Shown here piece after piece: positions 31,870-35,349 of a stretch of 64,000 bases of DNA. The DNA lies in assembly GCA_021828405.1 (NCBI GenBank), contig JAKARZ010000001.1, positions 1 through 64,000 of the forward strand, given 5' to 3'. How positions within the stretch are numbered: the stretch's first letter is position 1; the number at the start of each line of letters is the position of its first letter. Origin of the DNA: Bacillota bacterium (GTDB lineage: Bacteria > Bacillota_E > Sulfobacillia > Sulfobacillales > JAIMBI01). The translations under genes were made by a program, and so were the position numbers. The notes beneath the pieces were generated by a model, which was not told the origin of the DNA, made no database searches, and saw only the letters and a list, made by a program, of their open reading frames with translations.

Positions 31870-32094
31870 ATGCGAGCGAGCGCACCGACGAAGGGATTGG
31901 CAGCGAGAGACACGACCGAAAGGCTGCCAGACGGCGACGTCCTGGCCTACCACCGTACCGCACGCCAGCAGGTGGAACGCTTGGGGCTCGGTCAGCTTGG
32001 CCGCGGCACGCGCGTGATGCTGTGGGGGCTCCGCGGGTACGTGGTGTTTATGGCAGTGGTGGTCGCGGTACAGGTGGCCCAGGCTTGGCACTGA
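31870..32094 (+). CDS. Small single-span membrane protein paired with the NRAMP-related transporter
   Basis: A 74-residue protein with a polar N-terminus of about 45 residues and one C-terminal membrane segment (VVFMAVVVAVQVAQAW). It shares VER-x(n)-WGLR-x-Y, a hydrophobic span and a short tail with the 61-residue protein at 35164, which follows the other NRAMP-related gene in the same arrangement. The ATG has AAAGGAG eight bases upstream. The pairing suggests an accessory subunit or regulator of the transporter. I know of no named family; function is inferred from context only. Confidence 0.72.
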   Translation: MRASAPTKGLAARDTTERLPDGDVLAYHRTARQQVERLGLGQLGRGTRVMLWGLRGYVVFMAVVVAVQVAQAWH

Positions 32095-32140
32095 TTGCGA
32101 TGCTTTCCCCAGGCTATGGCGACGTAGGGGGGGGGGGGCT

Positions 32141-32873
32141 GGCAAGACCTGGTCATAGATGCGGAAACGACTGATCGGCGCCCGATCCCCTGGACTTGTG
32201 GGCGGCCGTCGCCCGACGAGTGCGGGCGTGCGACCCGGGGGTCGGAGCGAGTCGCGCCCCGCGAGGGGCCGGACGGAAATTCGTGGCAAAGAAGCCCGGG
32301 TCTTGATTCATCCCCGACAGGCTCGTGCCGCATGGCCCCTCAAAGACACGGGCCCACACCCCCCAGCGCCCCAGCCCGGCCGGGGCGGTTTCCGGGCCCC
32401 CGGTCCTGGGGCCGGACCCCGTCGTGGGTCCGACGGGGTCCTCAGCACGCGCTATCGGGTGGCGGGAGGGGAGAACCTCCGCTGATGCGCGCTAACGCGC
32501 GCCCGCCACGCCGCTATGCCACGCATGGCCAGCCCAAACAGGTGTGGGTCCGGTCCCTGGGCCCCGACGGCGCGGCACCGCTTCAGGGATCTGCGCGGAG
32601 GATGAGGACCATCCGAACGGGGCATGGCCCGCTTGCGCCTCCCCCCCCCCCCCCCCCCCCCCCCCCCCCCGCGCTGCGCCTCCTCCACTGGCGGCCGATC
32701 CTCAACGCCACCCGGCCCCCGTGGCAGACGCGCTCCTCGGCGTCGAGCGCGGTCGGCCCCGTGCATACCGTTCAACGCCCCGGGCGGCCCGTCGGCGGCG
32801 GCGCCTGCTCGCTTCATGCAGCACTCTCGGTCGTCGCTTCCGCCCCGAAACGACTGAGACTTTGACGTTATCA
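32141..32873 (+). mobile_element. Decayed, internally deleted copy of the DUF4338/ISAs1-like element
   Basis: The left 40 bases match the right end of the element at 61689-63380 at 35 of 40 positions (reverse complement), and the right 72 bases match its other end. Inside, a + strand frame keeps HGQPKQVWVRSLGPDGAAP, nearly identical to the DUF4338 part of the other copy. The middle of the transposase is missing and is replaced by a run of 30 C. There is no intact reading frame. Confidence 0.72.
32641..32670. repeat. Homopolymer of 30 cytosines
   Basis: An uninterrupted C30 tract lies inside the decayed element. A G12 tract occurs at 32127-32138, just outside its left end. Both could be hypervariable or assembly-prone sites. 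Confidence 0.9.
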
Positions 32874-32991
32874 TGCGAGGGCGGCGGGCAGCCGTGCCCC
32901 CCTTCGGAATTCATGGTACGTTGGCCAGGTGAGCTGCCCCGGCAGCTTCCGCCATATCAGCCGACGCCCATCGGCCGAAGGGAGTGCCCTC

Positions 32992-34968
32992 GTGAACATA
33001 GAGAGCCTTTGGGGAATCGCCACGTGGGGAGACCTCGCATGGGACCCGACCCGCGACCGCCTGTACTTCACGGAGTCCCGCCAGGACAAGGCCCAGAATC
33101 GTGCCACCCACCACCTGATGATGCTGGCGGCCGACCCGGGCGCCACACCGGTGGCGCTCACCGCCGGCCCTTCCGACACCGCGCCCGCCCCTTCCCCTGA
33201 CGGCCGTTGGCTCGCCTTCTTATCCCGTCGCTCGGGATCCAATCAGGTGTGGCGCCTGCCGCTTGAGGGCGGCGAGGCGCGCCAGGTGACGGCCATCGCC
33301 GGCGGCGTGCGCCACTTTCGCTGGGCCCCCACCAGTGACGCGCTGGTGGTGGTCGCGCATATCCGCGATGGACGCGTGGATCCCGAAGTGAAGGCGACGG
33401 AACCCGGACCTGACGCGCCCGACAGCGTCTTGGATGAGCACTACAACCGGGACGTGCGGCACATCACCCACCACCACTACAAGTTGGACGGCGAAGGGTT
33501 CTTCGATGCCGGCCGCAACCAATTGGTGTGGGTGGACACGGAGACCAAGGCCACCCGCCTCCTGACGGACGGCCGCGACAACTACGCGGAGCCGGTGTGG
33601 CATCCCGACGGCCAAGCCCTGTACTGCCTGCACCGCTTCTACGACCCCGAAGGATCCCACCCCGGCCTCACCCGAGTCGAGCGCCGCCCGCTGGACGGAG
33701 GAGCCCCAACGATTCTCCCCCTGCCCGACTGGTCCATCTCGGGCCTCAGTCTGGACGCCAGCGGGCAGCGGCTCGCGTTTTCCGCGACCGACCCGGAGGA
33801 CCACGGCTACGGGCTCACGATTCTTTACGCGTTTGACCTCAGATCCGAATCGCTGGTAGACCTTTCGAGCGCCACTGACCGCCCGGTGGGGGACCACAGC
33901 GGCAGCGACATCCCCGTGCGCTCGGCCGCTCGCCCGGTGTGGCAGGGAGACGATGTCCTCTGGCTGCTGTCGGACCAGGGCCGCGTCCAGCTCGCGGCGT
34001 TCAACGCCGGGCGCGTCACGCGGATTGCCGACCAGCCGCGGGTGGTTTATGACTTTGCCGTGCGAGATGACCGCGTGGCGCTGGGCATCGCCGATCCCAC
34101 CCACCCTTCCGGGCTGGTGCTGGGGCTCCAAGCTAAGGTGGACGGGGAGGCGGTCCACTGGGCCCCGGTCCCCTGGGGGACCGAAGACGGCCCTGTGGCG
34201 CCAGCCGACTTTTGGGCCACCGAGTCCGACGGCATACGGGTCCACACCTGGTGCCTCACGCCGGCTCTCGTGACCGGCCGCGTGCCCACGGTGCTCGAGA
34301 TTCACGGCGGCCCCGCCAGCATGTATGGGTATCGGTACTTTCATGAGTTCCAGTGCCTCGCGGCAGCCGGCCTGGCGGTGGTGTATTCGAATCCCCGGGG
34401 CTCTGTGGGGTATGGCCGCGAATTTGGCCGGTGCATCATGGGACAGTGGGGCGACCGCGACTACCGCGATGTGATGGCCGCCTTGGATGAGGCGTTGAGG
34501 CGCACCCCCGAGCTCGATGCCGAGCGGCTCGGGGTGGCGGGTGGCAGCTACGGCGGTTTTATGGTCAACTGGATCGTGTCCCACACGGAGCGGTTTCGGG
34601 CCGGCGTCACCATGCGGTCCGTGGTCAACCGCCTGTCAGCTATGGGCTCCAGCGACATGGGGTGGCTCCGGGTTCCCCAGTACGGCACCAAGCCCTGGTG
34701 GGAAGACATTGAGCCGTACTGGCAACAGTCGCCGTTGCGCTACGCATCGGCCATTCACACGCCGCTCCTGATCGAGCACCAGGAACAGGACTACCGGCTC
34801 CCGATTGAGCAAGGGGAGCAGCTGTATAACGCGCTGCAGTACCTGGGGCGCGAGGCGGAGTTGGTGATTTACCCCGGCGAGTCACACGGCATGAGCCGGG
34901 GTGGCAAGCCGTGGCACCGCATTCATCGGCTGCACACCATCGTCGACTGGTTCAACGGGCATCTATAG
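32992..34968 (+). CDS. S9 family prolyl oligopeptidase/acylaminoacyl peptidase
   Basis: A 658-residue cytosolic serine peptidase. Residues about 1-400 form a beta-propeller of WD-like blades (PAPSPDGRWLAFLSRR, NYAEPVWHPDG). Residues about 410-658 are the alpha/beta-hydrolase domain. The catalytic triad is visible: Ser519 in GGSYGG, Asp600 in EQDYRLP and His632 in ESHGMSR; the oxyanion HGGP motif is at about 440. No signal peptide is present. The GTG at 32992 has AAGGGAG seven bases upstream. It degrades short peptides by family precedent. It sits between the two NRAMP-related units, without visible operon linkage to either. Confidence 0.9.
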   Translation: MNIESLWGIATWGDLAWDPTRDRLYFTESRQDKAQNRATHHLMMLAADPGATPVALTAGPSDTAPAPSPDGRWLAFLSRRSGSNQVWRLPLEGGEARQVTAIAGGVRHFRWAPTSDALVVVAHIRDGRVDPEVKATEPGPDAPDSVLDEHYNRDVRHITHHHYKLDGEGFFDAGRNQLVWVDTETKATRLLTDGRDNYAEPVWHPDGQALYCLHRFYDPEGSHPGLTRVERRPLDGGAPTILPLPDWSISGLSLDASGQRLAFSATDPEDHGYGLTILYAFDLRSESLVDLSSATDRPVGDHSGSDIPVRSAARPVWQGDDVLWLLSDQGRVQLAAFNAGRVTRIADQPRVVYDFAVRDDRVALGIADPTHPSGLVLGLQAKVDGEAVHWAPVPWGTEDGPVAPADFWATESDGIRVHTWCLTPALVTGRVPTVLEIHGGPASMYGYRYFHEFQCLAAAGLAVVYSNPRGSVGYGREFGRCIMGQWGDRDYRDVMAALDEALRRTPELDAERLGVAGGSYGGFMVNWIVSHTERFRAGVTMRSVVNRLSAMGSSDMGWLRVPQYGTKPWWEDIEPYWQQSPLRYASAIHTPLLIEHQEQDYRLPIEQGEQLYNALQYLGREAELVIYPGESHGMSRGGKPWHRIHRLHTIVDWFNGHL

Positions 34969-35163
34969 CCGGGCGCTGTCGGATTGAGCCAAGCGGAGGC
35001 ATGACGACCGCTCCTCCCCGGTGAGGAAGAGCCATGAACGTGTCGGGTGTCCGTGAGGGAACCACGCCTGGTCTTCCCACGGACGACCCGAGGCGCCGCG
35101 GCAGCGAATGCTGAACCGGCGTCCCCGGGCGCCCGCCGCCCTGCCCATGCCCGCATGGGCCTC

Positions 35164-35349
35164 TCACCGGGCCCCCCGCATGAAGCCGATGACCACCGCC
35201 ACCACCATGGCCAGGATGTACACCCGCAATCCCCAAAACACGGCACGAATCAGCGGCGACGGCACGACCCGCTCCAGCGCAACCGGCTGCATGGCATCGG
35301 AGCGCGCACGGGCAGACTCTCGGGCATCGTTCTCGACAATCTCGGACAT
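35164..35349 (-). CDS. Small single-span membrane protein, second copy
   Basis: A 61-residue protein: an acidic, Arg-containing N-terminus, then the shared WGLR-x-Y element and one membrane span (ILAMVVAVVIGFM) ending RGAR. It is homologous to the 74-residue protein at 31870. It starts 70 bases downstream of the second NRAMP-related gene and has the strong site GGAGGG before its ATG. It is probably in the same M-box-controlled transcript as that transporter. Function not established. Confidence 0.72.
   Translation of the reverse strand: MSEIVENDARESARARSDAMQPVALERVVPSPLIRAVFWGLRVYILAMVVAVVIGFMRGAR

Follow-up and report, generated by a model that had tools for sequence, protein, structure and literature searches.

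We analysed a 64,000-nucleotide stretch of DNA (hereafter the window; contig JAKARZ010000001.1 of the Bacillota bacterium assembly GCA_021828405.1), in which two genes for NRAMP-related transporters are each followed by a gene for a small membrane protein. Transporter 1 (P0003, 451 amino acids [aa]), an NRMT-related paralogue with a PF01566 score of 181.9 bits, is encoded on the + strand from 30438 or 30456 to 31793 and is followed after 76 nucleotides (nt) by small gene 1 (P0001, 74 aa; 31870–32094, + strand). Transporter 2 (P0004, 461 aa; 35420–36805, − strand) is NRMT-like with a PF01566 score of 202.9 bits, and small gene 2 (P0002, 61 aa; 35164–35349, − strand) lies 70 nt downstream of it. 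The two transporter genes are convergent on opposite strands, with a peptidase gene (Peptidase_S9, 32929–34968) between them. P0001 and P0002 both comprise a charged, variable N-terminal part, then WGLRxY (Arg55-x-Tyr57 and Arg42-x-Tyr44, respectively), then one C-terminal hydrophobic stretch predicted to form a single membrane span. The paired small genes, the common motif and the single C-terminal span claimed in the original prediction were thus borne out.

Identity of the two carriers

The two carriers share 43% identity, and both belong to PF01566. The nearest solved structure to P0004 was EleNRMT (7qia, E 1.8e-54), compared with E 4e-13 for MntH, and P0004 scored 103 of 430 bits against the NCBIfam model of MntH, far under its cut-off. 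For P0003 the solved-structure search returned EleNRMT (E 8.5e-47) as the sole match. EleNRMT is known for Mg2+ selectivity and proton independence (PMC8806188). At the metal site of P0004, the first transmembrane helix (TM1) carries DNDAGG, D72 aligns with D55 of EleNRMT, and W249 in TM6 aligns with its Trp; the NRMT signature keeps the TM1 Asp and has Trp and Asn in place of the TM6b histidines, and in the same alignment P0004 has Gln at the Asn position, so that the signature is present with one conservative change. By these comparisons P0004 is closer to NRMT than to MntH and is classed as NRMT-like. TM1 of P0003 reads GENDAPS (motif at 30600–30640) and not DNDAGG, with the key Asp retained, and in clade B, which holds P0003 in a carrier tree built by a quick method and weakly rooted, the E, P and S of this motif are each present in 92%. 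Because of this motif, and because no M-box was found beside its gene, P0003 is filed only as NRMT-related, and its substrate may differ from Mg2+.

Co-location of the small genes with the carriers

Genomic context was drawn from relatives' genomes. Genomes were scanned with a profile made from 18 carriers, which gave 527 confirmed loci. The best 80 of these were kept, and all 80 had a small gene of the family just downstream of the carrier. Titles among them included Sulfobacillus, Alicyclobacillus, Ferroacidibacillus, Acidithiobacillus, Acidiphilium, a Deltaproteobacteria metagenome-assembled genome (MAG), and Thermoplasmata and Micrarchaeota MAGs, groups that we take to be acid-living.

The pooled count covered carriers that had been fetched by carrier queries and were full-length and non-identical; duplicate sequences and rows with <380 aligned residues were left out, as were the window and loci fetched by the small protein. 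A small gene lay ≤900 nt downstream of 137 of the 142 carriers above 425 bits (the branch), 0 of 28 at 300–425 bits (a sister clade, plus nine fused carriers), and 0 of 57 below 300 bits (more distant carriers), a division in which the 425-bit border was chosen after the data had been seen and low-scoring carriers were sampled in part, namely those above about 320–340 bits plus loci otherwise returned. With the small-protein-fetched loci and the window included, the count was 144/149. The 81 genomes of the Sulfobacillus thermotolerans class gave 71 carrier matches. Each of the 28 scoring ≥425 bits had a small gene downstream, and 29/29 small-protein hits adjoined a carrier match. The original prediction had stood to fall if small genes were not conserved next to such transporters in relatives, and these counts indicate that they are.

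A search of 17 of the genomes from the carrier scan yielded 61 PF01566 matches; at E ≤ 0.001 the small protein gave 34 hits, after the three weakest rows (E 0.06–0.43) had been judged chance and excluded. Of these hits, 31 adjoined a PF01566 match, 30 downstream and one upstream, and a small gene was downstream of 30 of the 61 carriers. One of the three others (L129, G010) follows a 60-aa remnant of a carrier frame, and two stand alone. At L109 (G015:C10) the small gene is directly upstream of its carrier. Elsewhere the small family was thin, with a single genuine genome among 149 drawn from one phylum (five of the six genomes hit there, at E 0.005–0.008, were judged chance), 4/299 and 2/145, each including the centre genome; these counts are lower bounds, since the small-protein profile misses distant members and at E ≤ 0.001 passed over three archaeal genomes whose small genes do adjoin a carrier.

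Unlinked small genes were seen in five genomes. L140, L368, L369, L370 and L371 are such genes, with an LEPxQL motif and a common neighbourhood; the reading frames flanking them are presumably major facilitator superfamily-like and phospholipase-D/cardiolipin-synthase-like.

The small-protein family and its selection

Compared directly, P0001 and P0002 have 9 of 21 aligned residues in common (BLASTP E 6e-5, a single comparison), and this plain similarity is by itself too weak to carry a claim of family. Their likeness goes beyond chance, since family members recur beside the carriers in 80 of the best 80 of the 527 confirmed loci. Small proteins from the retrieved pairs were also split into two sets by transporter score (n = 104, by that cut including P0001 of the window, and n = 40), and the two sets matched each other as profiles with a probability of 99% (E 1.7e-18).

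Selection was measured on the small gene 2 kind, for which the median ratio of non-synonymous to synonymous substitution rates (dN/dS) over 67 gene pairs was 0.10, with a maximum of 0.59. All 17 pairs without a shared gene had dN/dS < 1, and small gene 2 of the window gave 0.33 against its nearest relative, L001. The small gene 2 kind is under purifying selection. The absence of such selection, which the original prediction had named as a finding that would count against it, was therefore not what we found, a result that holds for this kind only.

When 5.8 billion proteins were searched with the small-protein profile, 83 matched at E ≤ 0.001, and none of these had a Pfam domain; those with names were called 'hypothetical protein', apart from one automatic label. 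Pfam had no match for P0001 or P0002, and 33 family members gave scattered weak matches to it, at best E 0.0048 (SMIM5_18_22, two members). The NCBIfam scan of small-protein members gave no convincing model (best 0.0037, one member), and the best of the PDB chains (E 0.46) was likewise unconvincing.

C-terminal fusions

Nine carriers of the Alicyclobacillus order (reading frames of 546–602 aa) have a C-terminal extension in which a likely twelfth span is followed by a basic linker and then by a segment that closes with LRGYL and a hydrophobic span. Eight clusters of fused proteins of this sort were found, all of them PF01566. Against the small-protein profiles the fused segment scored 27.8–29.2 (E about 1e-5, probability 80–84%), and 65 control windows from the carriers' own alignment scored ≤13.3. 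The fused segment is likely homologous to the small protein.

A TM3 aspartate that tracks the partner

We aligned 261 carriers (P0004 numbering) and found that D139, in TM3 and twelve residues before the TM3 Glu (codon 36389–36391 in the window), is Asp in 154/154 carriers whose partner is adjacent or fused, compared with 0/103 that lack one. The corresponding residue of P0003 is D126. Other positions also separated partnered from unpartnered carriers, namely W189 (96.8% vs 0), A403 (100% vs 5%), and the N-terminal R33 (97% vs 1%, the second group having mostly gaps there). On the side of the small protein, Arg-x-Tyr is present in 153/153 small or fused segments.

The other four carriers of the alignment, all members of the branch, kept D139 but had no small gene beside them in the fetched stretch; they form one subclade (support 99). 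In each of their genomes a small gene is present elsewhere, unlinked to the carrier (E 6.7e-7 to 1.5e-3) and in a common neighbourhood. Three further pairs, recovered from 299 genomes by searching with the small protein, likewise carry D139, and in two of them TM3 is identical. The reading of the arrangement as a real two-component unit, proposed from the window, is largely supported, for beyond co-location there are two independent signs, the nine fusions and a TM3 Asp that follows the partner.

The M-box and regulation

A complete M-box Mg2+ riboswitch aptamer (RF00380; 36998–37167, − strand; 1–169 of 169, 126.6 bits at a gathering score of 44) lies upstream of transporter 2. It is situated between a promoter-like TTGACA-17-TACAGT (37182–37210, − strand; 10/12 in a consensus scan that gave two sites vs 1.1 expected) and, just past the aptamer, a terminator-like hairpin with a T run (36967–36992, − strand; 11 pairs, seven of them G-C), one of six terminator-like sites in the region vs 3.9 expected. 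The promoter-like site alone is no evidence of function. A search of the whole window found no M-box by unit 1 (30438–31793), and the Mg2+ link is direct, through the M-box, only for the unit of 35420–36805.

At loci of the first kind, M-boxes were found at 11/20, distributed as 11 of 12 with Bacillota-type titles (one MAG titled Actinomycetes counted in) and 0 of 8 from Acidithiobacillus, Acidiphilium, Deltaproteobacteria and archaea. Loci of the second kind (relatives of transporter 1) had an M-box at 2/20, with the small gene present there, and the fused-carrier loci had one at 7 of 8 tested. None of 12 unfused sister-clade loci had its own M-box; three M-boxes seen there precede a neighbouring partnered or fused carrier.

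Topology and structure models

The 15 residues up to and including the Arg had a mean net charge of +3.5, compared with +0.1 for the C-terminal tail, and the N-flank was more basic than the C-flank in 153/153 small or fused segments. From this basic flank and the order of spans in the fusions, the small protein is predicted to lie N-in, C-out. Arg-x-Tyr would then be at the cytoplasmic end of the small span, and D139, by helix order, toward the cytoplasmic end of TM3.

AlphaFold models were obtained for a tethered pair (pLDDT [predicted local distance difference test] 77, pTM [predicted template modelling score] 0.79) and for a natural fusion (pLDDT 80, pTM 0.83). The small helix was confident to fair in both, and no usable contact was obtained. 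The 12-span structure 5m87 aligned with the tethered-pair model through the small helix (model 13–516 to chain 13–472, 416 residues) and the alignment of the 11-span EleNRMT ended at model residue 448 (387 residues); such range ends are noisy, as is seen from a stray end pair to the 11-span chain 6d91. The fused protein P0209 was modelled with an apparent twelfth helix at 452–476, ahead of the small segment.

A probable second subunit for a branch of NRAMP-related carriers

We consider it probable, at roughly 0.65, that an NRAMP-related branch of carriers, mainly NRMT of the Mg2+ type, has in these small proteins a dedicated second subunit. This reading builds on the observed co-location, conservation, fusion, selection on the small gene 2 kind, riboswitch match and residue correlation. 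The small protein would lie N-in/C-out alongside the carrier, and the invariant Arg of FWGLR-x-Y, positioned where the small span reaches the cytoplasm, would pair with the TM3 Asp of the carrier (D139 in P0004, D126 in P0003); this Arg-Asp contact is plausible at somewhat short of even odds. The basic segment may touch the cytoplasmic face of the carrier, at the N-terminal RxxD and the W of the TM4–5 loop, and the small protein may assist the folding, stability or gating of an importer believed to work without proton coupling. It would take the place held by an MgtE_N-CBS protein beside other NRMTs, and in unit 2 the carrier and the small protein would both be made at low Mg2+ under the M-box. 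A bolder form, in which the branch, seen here chiefly in acid-loving bacteria and archaea, is obligately two-subunit and the intramembrane Arg of the small chain forms with the TM3 Asp a gate or seal in place of the MgtE_N-CBS sensor of other NRMTs, in split and fused versions, is tentative and rather more doubtful than an even bet.

Several findings weigh against a dedicated subunit. Structural alignments of both AlphaFold models hint that the small helix occupies the TM12 position or lies close to it, and there its crossing sense would conflict with N-in. Read by eye, the tree perhaps needs only about three changes to explain the D139 label, so that 154 vs 0 does not amount to 154 independent cases. 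The plain A2 hidden Markov model did not flag the fused segment and the global profile match had a probability of 41%, which leaves its homology to the small protein short of proven. G002, a genome in which the search found no second-kind carrier, has an unlinked small gene, and the sister clade of 28 has neither D139 nor a small gene. EleNRMT, which has no D139, was purified and transports with no partner described (PMC8806188), so that NRMTs as a class need none.

Of the alternatives, the best placed is a co-made regulator, as opposed to a standing subunit, which, like MgtS with MgtA, would protect the carrier against proteolysis, or else inhibit it, when Mg2+ runs short. Small membrane proteins with this kind of action on Mg2+ carriers are known (PMC10710835, PMC13209247), and unit 2 is under M-box control. 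Fusion in nine carriers nevertheless implies a standing 1:1 partner, a presence at 137/142 is unlike that of a passing regulator, and the small gene is kept where M-boxes are absent or rare (0/8 archaeal and proteobacterial first-kind loci, 2/20 second-kind loci), and we regard a regulator as unlikely.

The alignment of the tethered pair with 12-span NRAMPs through the small helix would suit a detached twelfth helix that fills the TM12 place. The tether itself may force that placement, though, the basic N-flank in 153/153 segments argues for the opposite crossing sense, and the fused carriers seem to hold a twelfth helix already, before the small segment, all of which makes this account improbable. 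That the small gene simply shares a conserved operon with the carrier and serves a separate function, as unlinked copies in five genomes (one, G002, lacking a detected second-kind carrier) might suggest, is very improbable given the fusions, the D139 correlation and the 29/29 small hits beside a carrier in one class. The simple form of that reading, or a translation leader, was set aside in view of the purifying selection, the fusions, the upstream copy L109 and the unlinked copies.

Neighbouring features in the window

Small gene 1 and the peptidase gene have a run of 30 C (32641–32670) between them. Near unit 1 are genes for a cytosine/purine-type permease (25759–27063, − strand) and a YkuD L,D-transpeptidase (28740–30176, − strand). 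Neighbouring reading frames at 37333–37623 and 37630–38394 (− strand), the first carrying GGTSASS, had no match in a Pfam scan; they resemble pieces of a sedolisin-type peptidase.

Comparison with known systems and significance

The window carriers resemble NrmT/NRMT (Shin et al. 2014, PMC4072509; Ramanadane et al. 2022, PMC8806188) in PF01566 membership, in having EleNRMT as the top structural match of both, in the conserved TM1 Asp and TM6 Trp of the metal site and, for the P0004 unit, in M-box control. EleNRMT differs from the partnered carriers in having Ala at the D139 place. In Shin et al. (PMC4072509), an MgtE-N-like gene adjoins most of the NrmT group, whereas the neighbour of the window carriers encodes a single-span protein. 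A gene for a PRC-MgtE_N-CBS protein was upstream of all six outgroup NRMT-like genes tested. With a profile built from these six neighbours, an MgtE_N-CBS gene was found ≤600 nt from 21 of 75 low-scoring carriers, 0/104 and 3/40 partnered carriers, and 0/9 fused ones. Both arrangements tie a second gene to an NRMT, but the MgtE_N-CBS protein is a soluble-looking protein of 420–470 aa with PRC, MgtE_N and CBS domains, unrelated to a membrane protein of 55–75 aa. We infer that the small protein may stand in for the MgtE_N-CBS regulator. At the three partnered exceptions, the archaeal loci L262, L263 and L264, a carrier, a small gene and an MgtE_N-CBS-like gene occur together, an arrangement that is perhaps older.

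Short single-span proteins that act on transporters are a known kind, and some act in Mg2+ supply; examples of the kind are MgtS (MgtA, PitA), MgtU (MgtB) and AcrZ (AcrB). Their partners are P-type ATPases, PitA and a resistance-nodulation-division pump, unlike the present small partners, which are 53–92 aa long, encoded beside an SLC11/NRAMP carrier and have fused relatives; the comparison was made through Pfam and NCBIfam scans only. MetS of the neurotransmitter:sodium symporter-family carrier MetPS, a single-span protein encoded with a LeuT-fold carrier, is an analogue in the way it works, and MetS-type NCBIfam models matched none of 33 small-family members at E ≤ 1. The small partner would belong to a known kind, that of small accessory membrane proteins, and is apparently the first for an NRAMP-family carrier, in line with the earlier suggestion of an undescribed partner, since the full-text searches made in open-licence PMC papers showed no such NRAMP-carrier partner.

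If this is true, an SLC11/NRAMP-family carrier would for the first time have a known subunit, and a transporter family rich in structures would gain a second subunit together with a precise residue pair. The natural fused forms offer a single-chain complex for structure work, and D139 with a neighbour of 55–75 aa provides a label for such carriers where the small gene has been left as 'hypothetical protein'. The pairing would also open a route to asking how acid-living cells import Mg2+ via a carrier thought not to be proton-coupled.

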